Assembly (NCBI RefSeq): GCF_000766945.1
Contig: NZ_ALBT01000067.1
Span: forward strand, 1 to 64,000
Origin: Cellvibrio mixtus subsp. mixtus J3-8
GTDB lineage: Bacteria > Pseudomonadota > Gammaproteobacteria > Pseudomonadales > Cellvibrionaceae
Direction: 5' to 3'
DNA: 64,000 nt
Position 1 is the first letter of the stretch. Each line of letters starts with the position of its first letter. A program made the translations under genes and the position numbers. Positions 1,463-27,738 of the stretch are shown here, piece by piece. The notes below the pieces were generated by a model. That model was not told the DNA's origin and did no database searches. It saw only the letters and a program-made list of their open reading frames with translations.

Positions 1463-2116
1463 CTATTCTTTTTTCTCCTCCACACACCCTTTCTCCCCAT
1501 CGCCCAATTTTTCCAATCGAATATTGGTGATACTTACCGTGAATTTTCCATCAGTAGAAATACTAAAAGGCCCGACAATTTTACTTAAATCAAAGTTGTC
1601 ACTTTTAAAACAATTTAGCGGCAACGGCAGGGAAAACCATTCACCTTTGGGCATTTTTTTAATCAGGCTGTTGATAGATAGATCTGCGCGGCAAGGGTAG
1701 CCGCAGTCCAGGCCGATTTTTACATCTTTATCGGGTTTTACATCTACGCGCATATCAATGGTAAGTGCAGCGGCATCTTTAAATTTGGATAGGTCGATCG
1801 CGCTGCCGTAAAGACCAAGGTTTCCGACTTCTTTGCTGCGTGGCGACCATTTGATTTGGATTGCATCGCCTTGCGCTTTGAAATCTATTGGCGCTACTTC
1901 TATCTTGCCGCCTGCGGATTTACCTTCTCGCCCCTGGATATTCAGGCTCCAGTTGCTTGGGTCGCCCAATGAAATGCTGCGGTTGATTAATTCCCCTTTG
2001 ACCAGATAAAAATATGCTGGATTCAGGGTGTTTTGCGCTTGCACTGGTAATGCCATGAAAAAACCAAGGCTGGCGCAGGTCAGGAAAGAGGTAAGTGGGG
2101 AAAATGCGTTGCCCAT
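1463..2116 (-). CDS. Secreted protein with an ExoP C-terminal-type (galactose-binding-like) domain
   Basis: The chosen start is the internal ATG at 2116: it begins a clear Sec signal peptide ending in ALPVQAQ (about 24 residues), while an upstream start at 2206 would bury it. The mature part (about 190 residues) matches the ExoP galactose-binding-like domain usually found at the C-terminus of GH3 exo-beta-glucanases: WSLNIQG, DAIQIKWS, an LDCGYPCRADLSI region, the PLNCF segment, and FSISTDGKFTVSI. Here it stands alone without a GH3 catalytic domain, so it is probably a polysaccharide-binding accessory protein rather than an enzyme. It is divergent from the GH43 gene at 2459. Confidence 0.65.
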   Translation of the reverse strand: MGNAFSPLTSFLTCASLGFFMALPVQAQNTLNPAYFYLVKGELINRSISLGDPSNWSLNIQGREGKSAGGKIEVAPIDFKAQGDAIQIKWSPRSKEVGNLGLYGSAIDLSKFKDAAALTIDMRVDVKPDKDVKIGLDCGYPCRADLSINSLIKKMPKGEWFSLPLPLNCFKSDNFDLSKIVGPFSISTDGKFTVSITNIRLEKLGDGEKGCVEEKKE

Positions 2117-2458
2117 AATTATTGTCTCGTGTGACGTTATTATTAATTGTGTATCGCCATTAACTATTATTTTGGCGCCCAAATAATATTCACCCAAGAG
2201 TGACAAATGTCAAATTAATGAGCTGGACGCATCATTTTTAGACGCACATAAGCTGGAGCCTCGCAGGTCTCTCATTGTGTATCGCTTTGTTGAACTGCTG
2301 GTTCCGAACGTAAAGGAGATTGTAAAGACGCCTGATTCGCCTTGGCAGGTTATTAGCTTTAAGGGTAAACTCGATTTGTCTTATAATATTAGGATGAAAT
2401 CCTGACGAATAAGATAATCAACCGCAACCCTGCTAACAATAACGAACAGGTGATCACT
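2117..2458. other. Divergent intergenic region between ExoP-C-like gene and GH43 gene
   Basis: About 340 bases without a convincing ORF. A TATAAT at 2382-2387 could be a -10 box for the GH43 gene, but no good -35 box sits at the right distance. A Shine-Dalgarno-like AGGTGA lies just before the ATG at 2459. No operator palindrome was identified. Confidence 0.4.
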
Positions 2459-3823
2459 ATGTACAAGCGTTTACTGGCCGGCCTCGGCCTTTGGTTCTGT
2501 AGCCTTACGGTGTCTGCTATTACCCTTTCCGGGCTTACCAATTCCCATGATCCGGGTGCTATCACTAAGGATGGACATACCTATTTTCATTTCACCACGG
2601 GAACCGGGATTTGGTATTCAACATCCACTAATTTGACGACCTGGACCGGTGGCCCCAGCCCGGTGTTCAGTTCCTATCCCTCCTGGATTTACAACAAGAT
2701 CCCGAGCTTCGGCGGTTCATTCTGGGCGCCCGATATCATTCATATGAATGGCTATTTCTACTTGTATTACTCCGTATCGACATTCGGTTCTTCGAATTCG
2801 GCGATTGGTGTCGTGCGCTCGGAATCGCTCACATCACCCGCTTGGCAGGATTTGGGAATCGTAGTGGAGTCCTACGGCGGCAGTGCGGAAATCAATGCGA
2901 TTGATCCTGCGCTTTACCGCGATCACGACGGCAAAGTGTATATGAGCTATGGCTCATTCTTTGGTGGTATTGGCCTGGCGGAAATTAACCAATCCACAGG
3001 TAAATTAAATGGCAGTGTGACCAAAATTTACGGCGGCAACCACGCTGATATCGAGGCTCCTTACATTACGCGTAATGGCGATTACTATTATTTGTTTATC
3101 AATCGTGGCGCTTGCTGCAATGGTGCGAGCAGCACCTATTACGTGCAAGTTGCGCGCTCCACATCTGTTTATGGGCCTTACACCGATGTGCGCACATTGC
3201 TACCCAATACCGATGGTAAATACAAAGGCCCCGGCCATATTGGCCTGTTGAAGCAAGATGGTTGTAATTATGTTTCAACCCATTATTACGACTTGAATGA
3301 TAACGGTGCGGCCAAACTCGATATTTTAAAAATGACCTACAGCAATGGTTGGCCAACATTAACACGCAATTTTTCTGTCGCGAGTTGTGGTGGTGTAAGT
3401 GATGGCGTGTATCGGATTACCGCGCGCCATAGTGGTAAGGACTTATTACCCGCAGCGAAATCAGGTGCAAATGGTGCGATGATCCAACAAGAAACCTGGA
3501 ATTCCTATCGCGCACAACAATGGTATGTAATTAACCAGGGCACCGGTTATTACAGCCTGATTAACGCGGCGAGTTTGAAAAGCCTGGATGTGTATAACAA
3601 CTCCACGGCGGCGGGCGCGAATATCGCGCAGTGGGATTATTGGGGTGGTGCAGGGCAAAAGTGGAGCCTGACCAGCAGCAGTGGTTATTACACTGTTAAA
3701 TCGCAACTGAGTAATTTGCCGTTGGATGTATTGAATTTGAGTACCGCTAATGGTGCGCAAATTATCCAATGGAACGCGACGGGGGCCACTAACCAGCAAT
3801 TCAGTTTAACGCGCTTGAAGTAA
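2459..3823 (+). CDS. Secreted GH43 endo-alpha-1,5-L-arabinanase with C-terminal ricin-type (CBM13-like) domain
   Basis: The start is ATG 2459, behind AGGTGA; the in-frame GTG at 2450 lies within that site. A signal peptide covers about residues 1-20. Residues about 25-315 form the five-bladed GH43 propeller. The catalytic set is visible: D31 (HDPG, base), D149 (IDPALY, pKa modulator) and E199 (DIEAPYI, acid), at nearly the spacing known for Cellvibrio arabinanase Arb43A (D38, D158, E221). SFWAPDI is also typical. Residues about 318-454 hold three QxW-type repeats (QQWYV, QKWSL, QQFSL) of a beta-trefoil lectin domain. It would cut alpha-1,5-arabinan outside the cell. Endo rather than exo action is inferred from similarity. 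Downstream lie GH97 and a second GH43, a probable arabinan-degrading set, though a terminator follows this gene. Confidence 0.8.
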   Translation: MYKRLLAGLGLWFCSLTVSAITLSGLTNSHDPGAITKDGHTYFHFTTGTGIWYSTSTNLTTWTGGPSPVFSSYPSWIYNKIPSFGGSFWAPDIIHMNGYFYLYYSVSTFGSSNSAIGVVRSESLTSPAWQDLGIVVESYGGSAEINAIDPALYRDHDGKVYMSYGSFFGGIGLAEINQSTGKLNGSVTKIYGGNHADIEAPYITRNGDYYYLFINRGACCNGASSTYYVQVARSTSVYGPYTDVRTLLPNTDGKYKGPGHIGLLKQDGCNYVSTHYYDLNDNGAAKLDILKMTYSNGWPTLTRNFSVASCGGVSDGVYRITARHSGKDLLPAAKSGANGAMIQQETWNSYRAQQWYVINQGTGYYSLINAASLKSLDVYNNSTAAGANIAQWDYWGGAGQKWSLTSSSGYYTVKSQLSNLPLDVLNLSTANGAQIIQWNATGATNQQFSLTRLK

Positions 3824-3904: not shown

Positions 3905-5878
3905 ATGAAAATAGGTAATGTTTTGGTCAAAATCGCTGTGGTTGCCACAATAATGATAGGTGTTGTTGGGTGTAGTAAAAAGCCGCAGGAAACTCTCACC
4001 AGCCCTGACAAACAAATCAGTGTAAAAATAGTGGTGACTGACCAACATACACTTGCCTATAGCGTTGAGCGCGCCGGTCAACCGGTAATCCTCGAATCTG
4101 CATTAGGCCTGCAATTAACTGAAGCGGATTTCACTCATGATGTAAAAATTGATGCGCAGTCACCAGTGACTCCGGTGAGTGATAGTTACCAAATTCAAGT
4201 CGGTAAAAAAAGCAATATTACTTACACGGCTAACGAACAAACATTTTCTATCAGCAATGCACAACAACAAAAACTGACGTTGATATTTCGTGTTTCCAAT
4301 GATGGTGTTGCCTTTCGTTATTCGGTGACGGATTCCACTCTTGCCACCAAACAGTTTTCAAAAGAAATTACGGCTTTTAATATCGCGCCATCAGCAAAAG
4401 CCTGGCTGCAACCTATGTCAGTTGCGCAAACCGGCTGGAGCAATACTAATCCTTCTTATGAAGAGCATTATCAAATTGAAGTGCCGGTAGGCACTGATGC
4501 AACCCTGGGGCAAGGTTGGGTGTTTCCGGCGTTATTTAACCTTGGCGAAAACGCGCAAACCAATCAATGGATTGTGATTTCAGAAGCAGCGATAGATGGT
4601 AATTGGCATGGGTCTCATTTGCAATCGGGTTCAGCGGCTGGCCAATACACATTGGCATCGCCGCAAAGTGCAGAAGTGTTTATTTCTGCTACCGGTGAAA
4701 AAGGTGGGCTGCTTGCAAATGGCAGTGAAGTACTGCTCTCGCCGTGGCGAATTATTGCATTGGGTTCACTTGCGCAAGTAATGGAATCTACCTTGGGAAC
4801 TGACCTTGCTACACCAGCCATTCCTATGGAGAAAGATTTTATCAAGCCAGGTCACAGTTCCTGGAGTTGGGCGATTTTAAAGGATGATTTCACTACCTTT
4901 GATGTGCAAAAAAAATTTATTGATTACGCTGCTGATATGCAGTGGGATTACACGTTAATTGATGCTGATTGGGATAAAAAAATTGGATATGAAAAATTAA
5001 AAGAATTGGTCGATTATGCCGCGCAAAAAAATGTCGGCATTCTGGTGTGGTACAACTCCTCCGGGGATTGGAATACCTCTCCCTATAGTCCCAAAAGCCA
5101 ATTGATAACCCCAAAACAACGCGAAGCAGAATTTTCCCGTTTACATGACATTGGTGTGAAAGGTGTAAAAATTGATTTCTTTGGCGGCGATGGCCAATCC
5201 TTTATGGCGTATTACATCGATATTTTAAAAGATGCGGCCGCACATAAGTTGTTGGTGAATTTCCACGGTGCGACTTTGCCGCGCGGCTGGCAACGTACAT
5301 TTCCAAATTTAATGACCATGGAGTCAATCAAAGGTTTTGAATTCACAACCTTCACCCAGGCAGATCAGGACGCGGTTGCACAACACGTAGCTACCGCGTT
5401 ATTCGCGCGCAATATTTTTGATCCTATGGATTTCACACCGATGGTCTTCGGTGATATTCCCAATATTAAGCGCGTGACTGAAAACTCGTTTGAATTGGCA
5501 GAGTCGGTGCTGATGATTTCCGGTATCCAGCACTTTGCTGAAATTCCCGAAGGTATGGCAACTGTTCCCGAGTATGTAAAAGATTTTTTACGCGAGTTAC
5601 CACGGGAATGGGACGATGTGAAATTTATTGATGGCTACCCGGGAAAGTTTGCGGTGATCGCACGTAAAGCAGGTGACACCTGGTATATCGCCGGCATCAA
5701 TGCTGAAAAAGAAAGTAAAACCCTGACGCTGGATTTACATTTTATCAACGATAAAAAAGGTTATGTCATTGCCAGTGGCGAAACGGAAAGAAGTTTTATG
5801 CAGCAGCAAATAAATAGCAAAACACCTCAAACGCTGACCCTGCGACCCAACGCCGGTTTTGTGATGGTATTGAAATAA
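3905..5878 (+). CDS. GH97 glycoside hydrolase lipoprotein (retaining; alpha-galactosidase or beta-L-arabinopyranosidase type)
   Basis: The start follows GAGGT at 3896-3900. A lipoprotein signal with lipobox GVVGC puts the acylated Cys at residue 23. The family layout is complete: N-terminal beta-sandwich (about 30-290), (beta/alpha)8 barrel (about 300-560; HSSWSWAI, YTLIDADWD) and C-terminal beta domain. D424 in KIDFFGGDG is at the place of the catalytic nucleophile of retaining GH97 enzymes, so this is the retaining branch and not the inverting alpha-glucosidase (SusB) branch. Retaining GH97 members include alpha-galactosidases and beta-L-arabinopyranosidases; flanking arabinan-type GH43 genes favour the second, as an inference. 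It is 657 residues, normal for the family, and a REP pair follows nine bases after its stop. Confidence 0.8.
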   Translation: MKIGNVLVKIAVVATIMIGVVGCSKKPQETLTSPDKQISVKIVVTDQHTLAYSVERAGQPVILESALGLQLTEADFTHDVKIDAQSPVTPVSDSYQIQVGKKSNITYTANEQTFSISNAQQQKLTLIFRVSNDGVAFRYSVTDSTLATKQFSKEITAFNIAPSAKAWLQPMSVAQTGWSNTNPSYEEHYQIEVPVGTDATLGQGWVFPALFNLGENAQTNQWIVISEAAIDGNWHGSHLQSGSAAGQYTLASPQSAEVFISATGEKGGLLANGSEVLLSPWRIIALGSLAQVMESTLGTDLATPAIPMEKDFIKPGHSSWSWAILKDDFTTFDVQKKFIDYAADMQWDYTLIDADWDKKIGYEKLKELVDYAAQKNVGILVWYNSSGDWNTSPYSPKSQLITPKQREAEFSRLHDIGVKGVKIDFFGGDGQSFMAYYIDILKDAAAHKLLVNFHGATLPRGWQRTFPNLMTMESIKGFEFTTFTQADQDAVAQHVATALFARNIFDPMDFTPMVFGDIPNIKRVTENSFELAESVLMISGIQHFAEIPEGMATVPEYVKDFLRELPREWDDVKFIDGYPGKFAVIARKAGDTWYIAGINAEKESKTLTLDLHFINDKKGYVIASGETERSFMQQQINSKTPQTLTLRPNAGFVMVLK

Positions 5879-5886
5879 ACCTAGAC

Positions 5887-6007
5887 GTAGGTTGCCGGTG
5901 AGCTTGCGAACCGCAACATGGCCATGCACATACAACATGTCCAATATCTATTCGATTGCGAATGTTGCGGTTCCAACGCTCAGCCTGCGCGGCCCGCAGC
6001 AACCTAC
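5887..6007. repeat. Inverted REP pair (BIME-like)
   Basis: The left REP is GTAG at 5887 then GTTGCCGGT...ACCGCAAC (to 5917). The right REP is inverted at 5964-6007, ending CAACCTAC, and has a longer, different loop. The 46 bases between hold no gene. It fills the gap between the GH97 gene and the second GH43 gene. Confidence 0.85.
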
Positions 6008-6039
6008 AGAACGATGTACATAATGAGCGATATATTTAA

Positions 6040-7977
6040 ATGAAAAAATTATTAACCAGCTTTTTATTGCCGATCTTCTTGTTAAGTTGTGCAACCAAAG
6101 AATCTGCTAAAGAAACTACACCAGCTAACGATGCTGCAGCGTCCGTCGCTCCAGCGGATGTAAATACCTTTACCAATCCGATTTATCCCAATGGTGCAGA
6201 TCCATGGCTGGAATATTTTGACGGTAATTATTATTTAACGACTACCACCTGGACCTCGCAATTGGTAATGCGCAAATCGCCGACGCTGGCTGGTTTGGCA
6301 ACGGCGACACCGATCCATATCTGGTCTGAAAGTGAATTGGAACGTTGCTGTAATTTTTGGGCATTCGAGTTCCATCGCTTAAAAACTGAAAAAGGATATC
6401 GCTGGTATGTGATGTACACGTCGGGCATCGCCGAAAATTATGACCGCCAGCATTTAAGTATTATTGAAAGTCAGGGTGATGATCCTTTGGGGCCGTACAC
6501 CTACAAAGGCTCACCCATGCCGGATACCTGGAATATTGATGGCAACTACCTTGAATACCACGGCCAACTTTATTTGTTGTGGTCTGAATGGGTGAAGGAC
6601 GAGCAATCGATCTTTATTGCCAAAATGAAAAACCCCTGGACGATCACCGGAGAGAAAGTATTAATTTCCAAGCCGGATTACGAGTGGGAAAAATCCGGCA
6701 TGAAAGTCAATGAAGGTCCGGAGATTTTAAAACGCAATGGCCGAACCTTTATGATTTATTCTGCGAGTTTCTGTAACACACCGGATTATAAATTAGGCTT
6801 GATTGAATTAACTGGCGATCCATTAAAACCTGAATCCTGGAAAAAATCCGCTGAACCGGTATTTAGTAAAGCGAACGGTGTTTATGGTCCTGGTCACAAT
6901 GGATTTTTCAAATCACCGGATGGCACTGAGGACTGGTTAATCTACCATGGCAATGCCAGTGAAAAAGAAGGTTGTAGTTCTACCCGTTCATTACGCGCGC
7001 AAAAATTTACCTGGAATGCGGATGACACGCCAAATTTCGGTGAGCCGGTTGAAGCAGGAACGCCGGTGATTTCTCCGGCGGGTGAAAATGGTCCTCTGGT
7101 CACTAAAGTACAAGGCACACAAGTGCAGCTGGTTAGCAAAGCCAATAAACAATGTGTAGCGTTTGATGTGAATGGAAAAATTGCCCCGGCAGATTGCCGT
7201 AATGAATCTGCCAGTAATTGGGTTCTGGATTACACCACCAACGGGAATTATCGGTTAGTGAATAAAGACGGAAAATTTTTAGGCCAAGGCATTGGGAAAG
7301 AGGGCAATGGACAATGTAAGAGGGGAAATTCCAGCGATTTAAATATCGCTCCCTGGTACAACCAGCTGTGCCAGCAATGGCAATTGGTGCCGCATCACCA
7401 GGGTTGGTTAAGCCTGGTTAATGCGCAGACCAAACAGCCTATCCAGTTTTCAAATTGTGCGGAGCCCGCACCGGTTTCCGAGAAAAAATCGGTAGAAGAT
7501 GTCCCGCAATTTATTGAGCAAAAACCAGCATGTGCGTTGTGGCGTATTCAACCATTGCAAGAAGTTGCCATCACCAGTGTGCAAAGTGGTAAAGCGATTA
7601 GCTTCGCTGGAAAAAATAAAGCGGGCGCAAATATCGAACAGGACGAATGGAAAAACCAGGCAAATCAGCGTTGGGCATTTGTGCATACTGAAAACGGTTT
7701 TTATCAAATTCAATCTGCCGCTAACGACAAGCTGTGTTTAAGTGTCGCTAATAAATCCATTGTGCCCGGCGCCAATATAGAGCTGGCTGCCTGTGGTGAT
7801 AACCACGCGCAATGGCAAGTGGATTTCCTTACCGATGGCACGGTGAAACTGGCAAACCGCAAAAGCAACCTGGTCGTTGATCTGGCGCATTGCGGGGTGG
7901 CGAATCATACCAACTTTGCCCAAGGGCAATGGTTGAACTCCACTTGCCAGCGTTTCCAGCTCAAACCGATCCGGTAA
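6040..7977 (+). CDS. GH43 lipoprotein with C-terminal ricin-type domains (probable exo-acting arabinofuranosidase/arabinanase)
   Basis: A lipoprotein signal with C17 (FLLSC) is followed by an Ala/Thr/Pro-rich linker to about residue 42. The GH43 propeller (about 45-350) shows D54 (GADPWLEY), D167 (NIDGNYLEY) and E225 (VNEGPEIL) as the likely base, modulator and acid, plus YGPGHNGFF and IYHGN typical of the subfamily holding exo-alpha-1,5-L-arabinofuranosidases. Residues about 365-645 contain repeated QxW motifs (QQWQLV, QRWAFV, AQWQV, QRFQL) of two beta-trefoil lectin modules. Membrane anchoring suggests trimming of oligosaccharides at the cell surface or in the periplasm after the secreted arabinanase at 2459. 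Start ATG 6040 has a weak Shine-Dalgarno. Substrate is inferred. Confidence 0.75.
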   Translation: MKKLLTSFLLPIFLLSCATKESAKETTPANDAAASVAPADVNTFTNPIYPNGADPWLEYFDGNYYLTTTTWTSQLVMRKSPTLAGLATATPIHIWSESELERCCNFWAFEFHRLKTEKGYRWYVMYTSGIAENYDRQHLSIIESQGDDPLGPYTYKGSPMPDTWNIDGNYLEYHGQLYLLWSEWVKDEQSIFIAKMKNPWTITGEKVLISKPDYEWEKSGMKVNEGPEILKRNGRTFMIYSASFCNTPDYKLGLIELTGDPLKPESWKKSAEPVFSKANGVYGPGHNGFFKSPDGTEDWLIYHGNASEKEGCSSTRSLRAQKFTWNADDTPNFGEPVEAGTPVISPAGENGPLVTKVQGTQVQLVSKANKQCVAFDVNGKIAPADCRNESASNWVLDYTTNGNYRLVNKDGKFLGQGIGKEGNGQCKRGNSSDLNIAPWYNQLCQQWQLVPHHQGWLSLVNAQTKQPIQFSNCAEPAPVSEKKSVEDVPQFIEQKPACALWRIQPLQEVAITSVQSGKAISFAGKNKAGANIEQDEWKNQANQRWAFVHTENGFYQIQSAANDKLCLSVANKSIVPGANIELAACGDNHAQWQVDFLTDGTVKLANRKSNLVVDLAHCGVANHTNFAQGQWLNSTCQRFQLKPIR

Positions 7978-24702: not shown

Positions 24703-24733
24703 ACGGCGCTGCAATTGCAGCGCCGTTTTTTTA
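24703..24733. terminator. Bidirectional terminator between convergent genes
   Basis: A 10-bp perfect stem, ACGGCGCTGC (24703-24712) and GCAGCGCCGT (24717-24726), loop AATT, with A's before and a long T run after. It serves the GH5 gene and the convergent DUF2063 gene. Confidence 0.9.
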
Positions 24734-25432
24734 TTGCAAAAAATTTTCGCGAATGAGCCATTCCACTAATGGCCGGTTAACTCCTGGCGCAAATGCTTCT
24801 GCTAAACATTGCGCTTGCGACGTTAACAACAAATATTCTGCTGCTGACGCCCGGCGCCATAAATCCGGCAAATGCGGTGCGACTACCACATAAAAATTTT
24901 CCGCTTTTCCGGCAGCAATTGGTTTTGCTGTCAATAGTGCATGAAAGACTTCGAGTGGGTTGCGATTGAATTGCAATGCCACAACCCCGGGCGCGAGCTG
25001 GATTTTATCGACCTGCTTTATCGGCGCTCCATCATTACTCTGCAATTGACCTGCTTGTTTTAATGCATACTCAAATGCAATAGTTGTTTTGGTAAATGCA
25101 TCTACATCGTCGCGATCCAATAAAAATTGTTTGAATTGTTCTATCTCCGCCGCAAAAAATAACGTGCGCAACGGCATATGGGTGATGTAGTCGATAATTA
25201 AAAATTCCTGTTGCCAATATTTTAATAATCCGACGGTGAGAGGGGCTGCAGTGTGCAGTCGTCCCAATCGCCACCAGCCCTGGATTTGCTCAGTAACCAT
25301 TAACCCCTTGCTGGCGCGTAATTGCTGTAGCCAGCTTCGTTCTTCATCGCTCAGGTTTTGTTTGTGCATTAACGGCGTGTGATTGCCGCGTGCAAGGCTG
25401 ACCAAACAGGATTGAACATCAGCAAGCGGCAT
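24731..25432 (-). CDS. DUF2063-family partner protein of the MNIO enzyme
   Basis: A 233-residue protein matching the DUF2063 family (partners named MbnC, BufC or HvfC in other clusters): an N-terminal helical part (QSCLVSLARGN) and a C-terminal part ending in LVEWLIRENFLQ. In characterised MNIO clusters this partner binds the precursor peptide and docks it on the DUF692 enzyme. Its ATG lies inside the end of the DUF692 gene (14-base overlap, 25419-25432), so the two are translationally coupled, as expected for a stable complex. The N-terminal part is only weakly conserved by eye. Confidence 0.7.
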   Translation of the reverse strand: MPLADVQSCLVSLARGNHTPLMHKQNLSDEERSWLQQLRASKGLMVTEQIQGWWRLGRLHTAAPLTVGLLKYWQQEFLIIDYITHMPLRTLFFAAEIEQFKQFLLDRDDVDAFTKTTIAFEYALKQAGQLQSNDGAPIKQVDKIQLAPGVVALQFNRNPLEVFHALLTAKPIAAGKAENFYVVVAPHLPDLWRRASAAEYLLLTSQAQCLAEAFAPGVNRPLVEWLIRENFLQ

Positions 25433-26372
25433 AATTAGGCTCCATTTGTTGCAAATTCAAATGGTTTTTTTCCTGGGCGCAACAATAATGTTGCCAGAGT
25501 GCCTGGCAGCGCGTTAGTTGCGCAACGATTTTTTCCTCGCCCAACAATGGCAGTGCGTGCTCAAGTAACTCGTAGGTAATGGCACACAGGTTTGGGGTAT
25601 AAGGCAAAATAGATTCCAGCATGTCCCATACGGGTTCGGGCACCAGGTCGCTGTGTACGTCCAGTAAAAAACCTTCATGGGTGACGCCACCTGCAATATG
25701 AATTTCTATCACTCGATCAAGTTGCAAACGCATCAGTGCCGCTAATGGATCAAAGCCAAAATTAATGGCATTGCAGTAAAAATTATATAAATCCAATAAC
25801 AATCCGCAGTCGGTGTTGCTTAATAACTGGTTGAGGAATTCAATTTCATTCCATTCATTTCCAATAAAATCAGGTAAGTAACAGGTTGTATTTTCAATAA
25901 GGAAAGGAGTTGTGTAACGCTGGCATAAATGCTGGATGCGCGGGCAGAGTAAATCCAGTGCTTCGCGGGTAAACGGCAAAGGGAGTAGAAGTCCGGCGTG
26001 ATCTTCACCGCCGTCCGGATTTTTGGCGAGGGTAAAACCCAAATGCTCGCTATGCCACAAAAATGGTTGTTGTTGCGCATAGCTATCCAACATGGATAAA
26101 TAATCCTGGTTCCATCCGCTCGCTGAGCCTATTGATAGACCAAGGCCATGCACTATTACCGGAAAATCACTGGCGATAAATTTAAGCTGTTCAATTTTGT
26201 TGTTATCAAAACACAATTTGCGTTGTTGCCTGGTAATGATTTCCTCGCACAAAATGTCGGGGCTAACTTCAATAAAATTAATGATATTGGCATTGCGTAA
26301 AATCAGCGCTGAAAAATCCCAATGATAATTAATGCCTACCCCTAATTTGGTTGGACACTGTTTAATCGCCAT
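25419..26372 (-). CDS. DUF692-family multinuclear non-heme iron-dependent oxidative enzyme (MNIO)
   Basis: A 317-residue TIM-barrel protein with the metal-ligand motifs of the family (MbnB, TglH and bufferin-type enzymes): FIEVSPD (E35), VHGLGLSIG (H75), WHSEHLGF (H107, E109, H110), LIENTTCYL (E160, N161), LLLDLYNFY (D194, N197), EIHIAGG (H225) and LLDVHSD (D238, H240). These enzymes modify Cys or other residues of ribosomal peptides, for example forming oxazolone/thioamide, thiooxazole or cleaved products. The usual ERD-type C-terminal motif reads TYELLEH here. It sits between a likely Tat-exported precursor peptide (26456) and the DUF2063 partner (24731). Product chemistry cannot be predicted from sequence. 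Confidence 0.85.
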   Translation of the reverse strand: MAIKQCPTKLGVGINYHWDFSALILRNANIINFIEVSPDILCEEIITRQQRKLCFDNNKIEQLKFIASDFPVIVHGLGLSIGSASGWNQDYLSMLDSYAQQQPFLWHSEHLGFTLAKNPDGGEDHAGLLLPLPFTREALDLLCPRIQHLCQRYTTPFLIENTTCYLPDFIGNEWNEIEFLNQLLSNTDCGLLLDLYNFYCNAINFGFDPLAALMRLQLDRVIEIHIAGGVTHEGFLLDVHSDLVPEPVWDMLESILPYTPNLCAITYELLEHALPLLGEEKIVAQLTRCQALWQHYCCAQEKNHLNLQQMEPNYAAC

Positions 26373-26409
26373 AATGCCTCCTGCCTGAGACTAACGATGC
26401 GTTATCAAC

Positions 26410-26452
26410 AAAAAAAGCCGACACCACAGAATGTCATGTATCGGCTTTTTTT
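26410..26452 (-). terminator. Hairpin between precursor and MNIO genes (attenuator/terminator)
   Basis: AAAAAAGCCGA (26411-26421) pairs with TCGGCTTTTTT (26441-26451) around an 18-19 base loop and ends in a T run on the minus strand. It lies just after the precursor stop and before the DUF692 gene. A leaky terminator here would give more precursor than enzyme, a common arrangement in RiPP operons. Confidence 0.75.
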
Positions 26453-26455
26453 GCG

Positions 26456-26842
26456 TTAACGTTGCATAAGGCTGGCCGCAACGGGAATACGGGTGTCCAA
26501 TTTGATAACCGGATTAATGCGGAAGCGCAAATCAAAACCGTTGAAACCGCAATTCAAACACCCGGTCATTCTCCCCAATTGTTTGAGGATGCTATTGAAA
26601 TCATCAAGTGCGACATCCGCACTATTAAAAGCGATGTCAATAACTTGCACCGGGCTTGCTGCTTTAGTGACATTGCCAGCGGCATCGTAACAGGTTTGTG
26701 CTGTGGCGGATTCTGCGGCTGTGAGCGTTGCTATAGCACCGGCGGCGAGCATGGAGTTGCGTAAAAAATCGCGGCGGTCATTGGGATTGCTGGATGCGTT
26801 AACGTCTTGAGTTTCAGTGACAGGGGATTTTTCGTCAGACAT
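26456..26842 (-). CDS. Candidate RiPP precursor: Tat-signal protein with CxxCGFxGFD motif
   Basis: Start ATG 26842 is set by a strong AAGGAGAAGG site; the longer frame to 26911 lacks one. The product has 128 residues. An N-terminal region ends in a twin-arginine motif (R23-R24 in DRRDFLRN), then a hydrophobic stretch (30-43) and a likely cleavage after ATAQ (residue 49). The predicted mature part of about 79 residues has only three Cys: C51 near its start and the pair C95/C98 in TGCLNCGFNGFDLRF (93-107), followed by a basic and hydrophobic tail. Position directly before a DUF692 enzyme and its DUF2063 partner makes it the probable substrate. Tat export fits modification and folding in the cytoplasm before secretion. 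I do not recognise a named family; it is not the EGKCG-type (DUF2282) bufferin precursor. Confidence 0.7.
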   Translation of the reverse strand: MSDEKSPVTETQDVNASSNPNDRRDFLRNSMLAAGAIATLTAAESATAQTCYDAAGNVTKAASPVQVIDIAFNSADVALDDFNSILKQLGRMTGCLNCGFNGFDLRFRINPVIKLDTRIPVAASLMQR

Positions 26843-27003
26843 GATCCTTCTCCTTAACGATTGATAAATGAAAGAGAGTGCTTGCCGGAAACTCCTTGGG
26901 CTCTCTCGCATTTAATCATCTGCTCCTGTTGAATATTAACCAGCGAACAATGAAGCAGAATTCTTGTGAAATATTCACATAACTCCAAAAAAATGGCGTA
27001 CAT

Positions 27004-27738
27004 TTATTTGTTTAACAGTGGTTTAAACAAACCATAATTCCAATGGCGTGCCGCTAATACCAATGTAACACCCTTGCGTTCTTCCAGTGGTAAACCGGCA
27101 TCCTGGTTATTTAATTCATCGAACTCGCGCGCTACACGTTTAAGTTTGCGTTGGAATTCCTTATGACTGGCAGGGGACAGCATACCGTTTAAGACCAGCA
27201 AATATTCATCCTGGTTATCAAAGCGTGCCTTAAAAAATTCCTGTGCAATTTTTTCCTGGAAAAATTGTTGGATAGGGCCACCTTCGCGCCAACCGAAATT
27301 GGTTGCAACGCGTAATTTAATTTTATTGCGTGGCAATAATTCAATCAGTTTCAGCTTGTCCAGTTGGATTAATTTTTGCAAACAATCATGTTCGCTAATT
27401 TTGTACCAATCCAGAATTTCTTCCATTGTCCAGCGATTCAACACGCACACGGTAACCAATAGCAACATCAAGTCGCGGGTAATTTCCTCTTCTTGTTCGC
27501 GGGTTAACTGCTGCAATTGCGGTTGTTGTTCATTCATCAATTGCACCAGGTCAGAAATTTCCATCTGCATTAACTGGCAAATTTGCTCCAGGCGTTGCAG
27601 GGATATTTGTTGTTCGGAGAACAGGCGTTTCACACTGGCCTCGGTGAGATCCAGGTGGATTGCCACCCGGGCATAGGTGAGGCCGTGACTTTTCAGGGCT
27701 TTTTTCAGGGTGCCAAGCAGGTTATTGATTTGGGGCAT
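27004..27738 (-). CDS. XRE-type helix-turn-helix regulator
   Basis: Start ATG 27738 (MPQINNLL) begins just before the DNA-binding domain; the frame to 27816 adds residues without family features. Residues about 5-65 form a Cro/C1-type HTH (YARVAIHLDLTEASVKRLF then SLQRLEQICQLM). The rest (about 80-244) is a mostly helical domain with EEILDWYKI and LVLNGMLSPASHKEF, seen in uncharacterised XRE regulators of gammaproteobacteria. It lies upstream of the RiPP-like operon on the same strand, 160 bases from the precursor, and diverges from the acyltransferase gene. It could regulate either one; no operator was identified. Confidence 0.75.
   Translation of the reverse strand: MPQINNLLGTLKKALKSHGLTYARVAIHLDLTEASVKRLFSEQQISLQRLEQICQLMQMEISDLVQLMNEQQPQLQQLTREQEEEITRDLMLLLVTVCVLNRWTMEEILDWYKISEHDCLQKLIQLDKLKLIELLPRNKIKLRVATNFGWREGGPIQQFFQEKIAQEFFKARFDNQDEYLLVLNGMLSPASHKEFQRKLKRVAREFDELNNQDAGLPLEERKGVTLVLAARHWNYGLFKPLLNK

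Follow-up and report, generated by a model that had tools for sequence, protein, structure and literature searches.

Organization of the locus

The DNA analysed here (the window) is a stretch of 64,000 nucleotides from Cellvibrio mixtus subsp. mixtus J3-8 (contig NZ_ALBT01000067.1, positions 1 to 64,000), whose genome measures 5.18 Mb. On its minus strand three open reading frames (ORFs) form a compact unit that encodes a small precursor protein with a twin-arginine signal and a cysteine-containing core, an enzyme of the MNIO (DUF692) family and a partner protein (Table 1). The last two genes overlap by 14 bases. The same unit, with RRDFLRN and a GCxxCGFNGFDL core in the precursor, is found in five Cellvibrio genomes. 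An earlier note had described a three-gene minus-strand unit spanning 24731–26911. The unit is real and its position stands, but 26911 is the upstream ATG of a 151-residue reading frame. The 128-residue start at 26842 is preceded by TAAGGAGAAGGATC, and the relatives can start there too.

The precursor and its core

The precursor has a polar start, the RRDFLRN motif, a hydrophobic stretch and the sequence ATA-Q, followed by about 80 residues. The cysteines after the signal are C51, C95 and C98, and the Cys-pair segment reads TGCLNCGFNGFDLRF. This segment and the twin-arginine signal are as the earlier note had described them. The twin-arginine motif with its hydrophobic stretch is present, RRDFLRN occurs in all five precursors, and TatC is encoded in the genome. 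The mean pairwise identity of the five precursors is 36% for residues 1–22, 100% for RRDFLRN, 81% for residues 30–49, 71% for residues 50–64, 63% for residues 65–92, 92% for the core (residues 93–105, 11 of these 13 being invariant) and 61% for the tail. The RR motif (7/7) and the core are thus the best-kept segments, with 36–81% mean identity elsewhere, and the expectation that GCxxCGFxGFD would prove the best-conserved part holds, with the RR motif beside it. The precursors are 55–71% identical to the window copy and better kept than the partner (40–51% among the Cellvibrio copies). In Pfam and NCBIfam the precursor shows no DUF2282, Buf or EGKCG family match, and EGKCG is not found in its sequence.

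The MNIO enzyme

MNIO enzymes carry out unusual iron chemistry, mainly on cysteines. The window enzyme matches PF05114 (E 4e-57), over the cut-off, and a profile of its relatives matches 3BWW (1.7e-34), the DUF692 chain of TglHI (8hci_D, 2.1e-27) and MbnB of 7dz9 (4e-7). Residues H75, H107, H110, E160, N161, D194, N197, H225, D238, H240 and E268 are kept in all five Cellvibrio copies, which bears out the earlier description of a DUF692 enzyme with its conserved motifs. We take these eleven positions to be iron-site or neighbouring residues, with roles assigned in part by alignment. The paper behind the alignment (PMC13419390) describes, in its available part, D242 and H244 of HvfB as essential for function; D238 and H240 align to these.

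Five NCBIfam MNIO models match the enzyme, each under its own cut-off. The best is BufB (158.8 of 310 bits), and HvfB gives 139.4 of 360 bits. ChrH, whose cut-off is 600 bits, gives only 73.6, and this bears on a reading in which the CxxCGxxG core forms a ring as at CPxCGxG, the unit being related to the chryseobasin systems but exported by a different route. The Cys-x-x-Cys-Gly spacing is similar, and ChrH-family enzymes are described as acting on secreted proteins and lipoproteins too (PMC12636315, in its available part). However, the core here has no proline and is internal, its G-G gap is two residues, and a distant relative (G570, described below) has CC for CG, which together with the low score makes ChrH-like chemistry quite unlikely. 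In a tree of 34 MNIOs, the five Cellvibrio enzymes group with that of G042, a genome of another genus, and with the G570 enzyme (100/100); the 27 others, among them the second MNIO of the host genome, lie apart.

The partner protein

The partner had been assigned to DUF2063. Its 14-base overlap with the enzyme gene is confirmed, but the DUF2063 label is rejected: searches of Pfam and NCBIfam at E up to 1 give no match to the partner. As a control, the partner of the other MNIO in the same genome matches DUF2063 with E 7.9e-25, so the library would have revealed this domain in the window partner. That second system (contig C6, locus L001, 740–2648) consists of a 109-residue precursor with GKCG repeats, an MNIO and a DUF2063/NGO1945_C partner. 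A comparison between the two partners yields 43% over 47 columns.

To judge from its sequence, the window partner seems to fit published PME-type 2 partners better than DUF2063. PME-type 2 partners are described as lying 3' of MNIO genes, lacking the DUF2063 signature and resembling NGO1945 and TglI (available text of PMC12452194, a survey of 2025); the window partner likewise lies 3' of the MNIO gene and lacks the signature. One of the four PME-type 2 models pictured there is a 215-residue protein of Cellvibrio sp. KY-GH-1. The partner in one of our five genomes (G014) also has 215 residues and may be the same protein. When a model of the window partner (poor, pLDDT 45) is compared with 350,542 PDB chains, 8hi7_A and 8hci_A, both from the TglHI complex, rank first and second with E 0.78 and 1.4. 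By length (268–269 versus 304 residues) these would be the TglI chain, a suggestive match that is not significant.

These results also bear on the idea that the unit is a usual copper system of the bufferin type, altered in its signal peptide alone. Its gene order would be identical, and BufB is the best model. Yet all MNIO models stay below their cut-offs, the partner lacks DUF2063, the precursor lacks the bufferin signature and, in the tree, the enzyme lies apart from the 27 other MNIOs. We regard this explanation as very unlikely.

The intergenic hairpin

Between the precursor stop and the MNIO start a hairpin is possible in all five loci. In their alignment 54 of 55 cells are paired and 6 of 11 pairs are changed on both sides. 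The covariation score is reached by none of 500 shuffles, and shifting the partner column by 1–3 positions leaves 27–53% paired; the structure was derived from the same five sequences as the test, which is a bias toward the hairpin. A strong T run is missing in three of the five loci, so a terminator is not the sole reading. From its sequence and place, the hairpin may be an attenuator or a stabilising end that would allow precursor to be made in excess of enzyme.

Distribution of the unit

The sample of relatives holds 96 genomes, of which 21, including the host genome, are Cellvibrio. Precursor homologues occur in five of the 96, all Cellvibrio, and partner homologues in six, the same five and G042. 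All five Cellvibrio loci share the order precursor-MNIO-partner on one strand and the 14-base overlap. The unit is therefore beyond chance, given the 55–71% identity of the precursor, the conserved order and overlap, and the covarying hairpin. No precursor homologue without MNIO and partner is found among the 96 relatives, an outcome on which the earlier note had staked the role of the small protein.

A partner profile run against 390 genomes of the order adds G340, of the same genus as G042. MNIO and partner homologues lie at 4846–6416 of locus L014 (G042) and at 1492–3062 of locus L038 (G340), and no comparable precursor is seen ahead of either MNIO. In the G042 enzyme D238 is replaced by N and H240 by R, and G340 has the same letters. 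The G042 pair lies downstream of minor-pilin-like genes. Directly ahead of both MNIO genes there is a 26-residue ORF with a TTG start and three cysteines, which may be chance.

The precursor profile A1 matches 14 of the 390 order genomes, the host genome and 13 weak ones. Of the weak matches, ten do not extend as far as the core and three (L025, L033, L034) do; in six of the 13, inspected by eye, no MNIO was recognised. When the species collection was scanned for two short peptide patterns, which would miss diverged cores, 69 stretches at four distinct loci matched. Three are Cellvibrio (sp. OA-2007, UBA7671 and a bin). The fourth, L022 from an alphaproteobacterium, is a 14-residue match in a 392-residue ORF unlike the precursor and is taken as chance; most ORFs around it were read over their first 70 residues, with no MNIO search there. 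Plasmids gave no precursor match.

Distant loci and the G570 fusion

An MNIO search of 369 genomes of the class gives 189 that match at E 1e-25 or better. Among 29 MNIO loci read by eye besides that of the window, 19 lie behind Sec-type Cys-rich peptides of the bufferin or GKCG kind and nine are of uncertain kind. None of the 29 has a credible twin-arginine precursor; RRxF pattern matches ahead of the MNIO in L047 and L069 appear to be spurious reading frames.

One of the 29 loci stands apart. There, in genome G570 of a gammaproteobacterium, a 494-residue MNIO has a C-terminal domain homologous to the window partner (hhalign 95%, E 2.4e-8 with the partner profile). Two tandem leaderless peptides, 68% identical to each other, precede the fusion and carry the core GCTACCSGWDIRF. 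The motif GC..C.{0,2}[NS]G[FWY]D[IL][RH] is expected 8e-6 times in 1249 ORFs and only the two G570 peptides match, the motif having been defined after both cores were known and each peptide being present twice in the ORF set. Shuffling the set 300 times gives 0 matches. The locus (L071, 6017–10414) immediately follows another, bufferin-like cluster that has a DUF2063 partner, and it converges with an FTR1/cytochrome c gene.

Among the four genomes of the G570 family and order, peptides and fusion occur in G570 only. A search of the phylum with a profile of the G570-type peptides gave weak matches in 3 of 299 genomes, all inspected and dropped. A plasmid tblastn search gave five weak records, of which three were inspected and dropped, and viral contigs gave none. 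The core profile A6 matches 12 of 298 class genomes. Besides G570 and the host genome, which also has a second, weak match, these comprise ten weak matches: L105, L106, L108, L110 and six (L101, L102, L103, L104, L107 and L109) that are ATPases with C..C motifs, which we take to be GspE/PilB-like.

Flanking elements

Table 1. Features of the unit and of its flanks, in window positions
Feature	Positions	Strand	Remarks
Precursor gene	26456–26842	-	128 residues and stop; coding part 26459–26842; homologues in 5 of 96 relatives
Twin-arginine type signal, residues 1–48	26699–26842	-	RRDFLRN at 26756–26776, invariant in 5/5; likely cut after ATA, site read by eye
Core TGCLNCGFNGFDL, likely modification site (C95, C98)	26528–26566	-	11 of 13 positions identical among the five precursors; two G570 peptides have a related core
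Terminator-like putative attenuator hairpin	26410–26445 (hairpin 26417–26445, then seven T)	-	Between precursor and MNIO genes; covariation, five loci
MNIO (DUF692) gene, 317 residues	25419–26372	-	PF05114 E 4e-57; profile matches 3BWW, TglH and MbnB chains
Partner gene, 233 residues, PME-type 2-like, without DUF2063 signature	24731–25432	-	14-base overlap with MNIO gene; homologous to G570 fused domain
Perfect palindrome CGGCGCTGCAATTGCAGCGCCG then T run	24704–24725	-	3' of partner gene; probable unit terminator, from sequence
Palindrome TGTGAATATTTCACA upstream of precursor	26965–26979	-	Possible regulator site; similar palindrome in 3 of 5 aligned loci

The palindrome behind the partner gene is absent from the output of the terminator scan, which needs a loop of 3–8 bases. 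The promoter scan gives a single weak site, on the strand opposite to the unit. Upstream of the unit (27004–27735, minus strand) lies a gene for a 243-residue protein with a Cro/C1-type helix-turn-helix domain (PF13443). It is present in 15 of the 21 Cellvibrio genomes, some of them without the unit, so it is not tied to the unit. The neighbouring genes in the window and in G014 are on the cellulase side; those in G001, G019 and G008 are a gene for a 296–333-residue protein and HlyD/RND-like genes. In L017 (7818–9138), and likewise in L016 and L018, this periplasmic-looking protein is encoded 3' of the unit and the HlyD/RND-like genes follow. The one of its three copies that was scanned has no Pfam match at E 0.01. 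The surroundings vary between loci, so we do not infer function from neighbours.

Proposed mechanism and alternatives

On this sequence evidence the unit is likely to be an operon for a ribosomally synthesized and modified small protein of the MNIO type, in which the core cysteines would be oxidised and the product exported by the twin-arginine translocation (Tat) pathway. MNIO and partner would bind the precursor in the cytoplasm; in related systems the action of MNIOs on cysteine is described as partner-dependent (PMC13419390, PMC10214503, in their available parts). A mixed-valent iron site and O2 would then serve to oxidise C95, C98 or both in the core, mixed-valent diiron chemistry being described for MbnB and HvfB (PMC13419390, in its available part). 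The modification would probably be a loss of four hydrogens, giving a thiooxazole, an oxazolone-thioamide or a ChrA-like ring. Tat would export the modified precursor, and cleavage by signal peptidase after ATA would leave a periplasmic product of about 80 residues. The hairpin 3' of the precursor gene would let more precursor than enzyme be made. Our best guess at a function, drawn from the analogy with bufferins, is periplasmic binding of Cu(I) or another thiophilic metal by the product; this is speculative and, on our analysis, somewhat doubtful.

Several observations weigh against this interpretation. The precursor is confined to one genus and to 5 of its 21 genomes, and in G042 and G340 the MNIO-partner pair is present without it. 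The score with the Tat signal model TIGR01409 is 15.3 bits, slightly below the cut-off of 16.7. In the tree the branches of G042 and G570 are very long, and the program warns of false joins. The profile match of the core to the G570 peptides is non-significant (hmmsearch E 0.39 and 0.49), two unrelated ORFs outrank them (E 0.094 and 0.2), and hhalign of the precursor core with G570 gives 38–60% in single comparisons. The structure models of partner (pLDDT 45) and precursor (pLDDT 44) are too poor to use.

The pairs in G042 and G340 would suit an explanation in which MNIO and partner modify another target, a short unannotated peptide or a protein. The Tat protein would then be a neighbour, such as a redox or metal protein of the periplasm that works with the product. 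CxxC by itself is a simple metal or redox motif as well, and the core profile retrieves the zinc motifs of the ATPases mentioned above. However, the precursor is never found without the enzymes (5/5 loci, 96 relatives), and it occupies the position of the bufferin precursor, the order being bufABC (PMC12452194, available text). A related core recurs ahead of the G570 fusion, and the MNIOs of G042 and G340 are altered at two conserved residues. We consider another target unlikely. The earlier proposal that the small protein is the substrate thus gains from its constant association with the enzymes, but the pairs without it and its restriction to one genus count against the proposal.

For signal-bearing precursors it is an open question what stops export outrunning modification (PMC12452194, available text). 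Tat transports folded cargo, so it could hold back a precursor whose core has yet to be modified and folded. That such a folding check, not DUF2063 masking of a Sec signal, delays export here is possible, with the balance of our judgement against it. If true, it would account for a PME-type 2-like partner on an exported precursor, contrary to the published pairing of Sec signals with PME-type 1 partners and of PME-type 2 with their absence (PMC12452194, available text). A precursor with a Tat signal would open the question of export versus modification to direct testing, since one could make Tat export modification-dependent. The compactness of the three genes, the DUF2063-type MNIO control in the same genome and the fused distant relative make the locus a convenient site for seeking a new modification. 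If the relation to G570 is true, the core GCxxC[CG].G[FW]D[IL]RF would define a wider precursor family that includes leaderless members.

Comparison with known systems

Hundreds of unassigned small ORFs are reported to precede MNIO genes (PMC12452194, available text). At the level of titles and abstracts we found no Tat-signal MNIO precursor, and prior notice, for example in supplements, is possible; the word 'Tat' is absent from the main texts of PMC12452194, PMC13097082, PMC12538549 and PMC12636315.

The bufferin, oxazolin and EGKCG systems (bufABC, hvfABC, fon, mmr) share with the window the order precursor-MNIO-partner, a signal-bearing Cys precursor and the MNIO Pfam family. Unlike them, the window has a twin-arginine rather than a Sec signal, no DUF2282, Buf or EGKCG repeats, a partner without DUF2063 and an MNIO below the BufB and HvfB cut-offs. 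In PME-type 2 systems (TglHI, ApyHI, PbsCD; PMC12452194, available text) the partner is likewise 3' of the MNIO and without DUF2063, but the precursors are described as lacking Sec signals, while the window precursor has a Tat-type signal. The chryseobasin (ChrA-ChrH) and DybA lipoprotein systems also have a CxxCG-type core and modified proteins that are exported there and predicted to be exported here; the window differs from chryseobasin in an MNIO far below the ChrH cut-off, an internal core without proline and another export route. A further close system is the G570 locus, where the MNIO groups with that of the window, the partner domain is homologous and the core is related; in contrast to the window, MNIO and partner are fused there, the two tandem peptides have no signal and CC replaces CG. 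The kind of system, an MNIO with a partner and a Cys precursor, is already known, while the version with a Tat signal appears to be new and is so far restricted to one genus.

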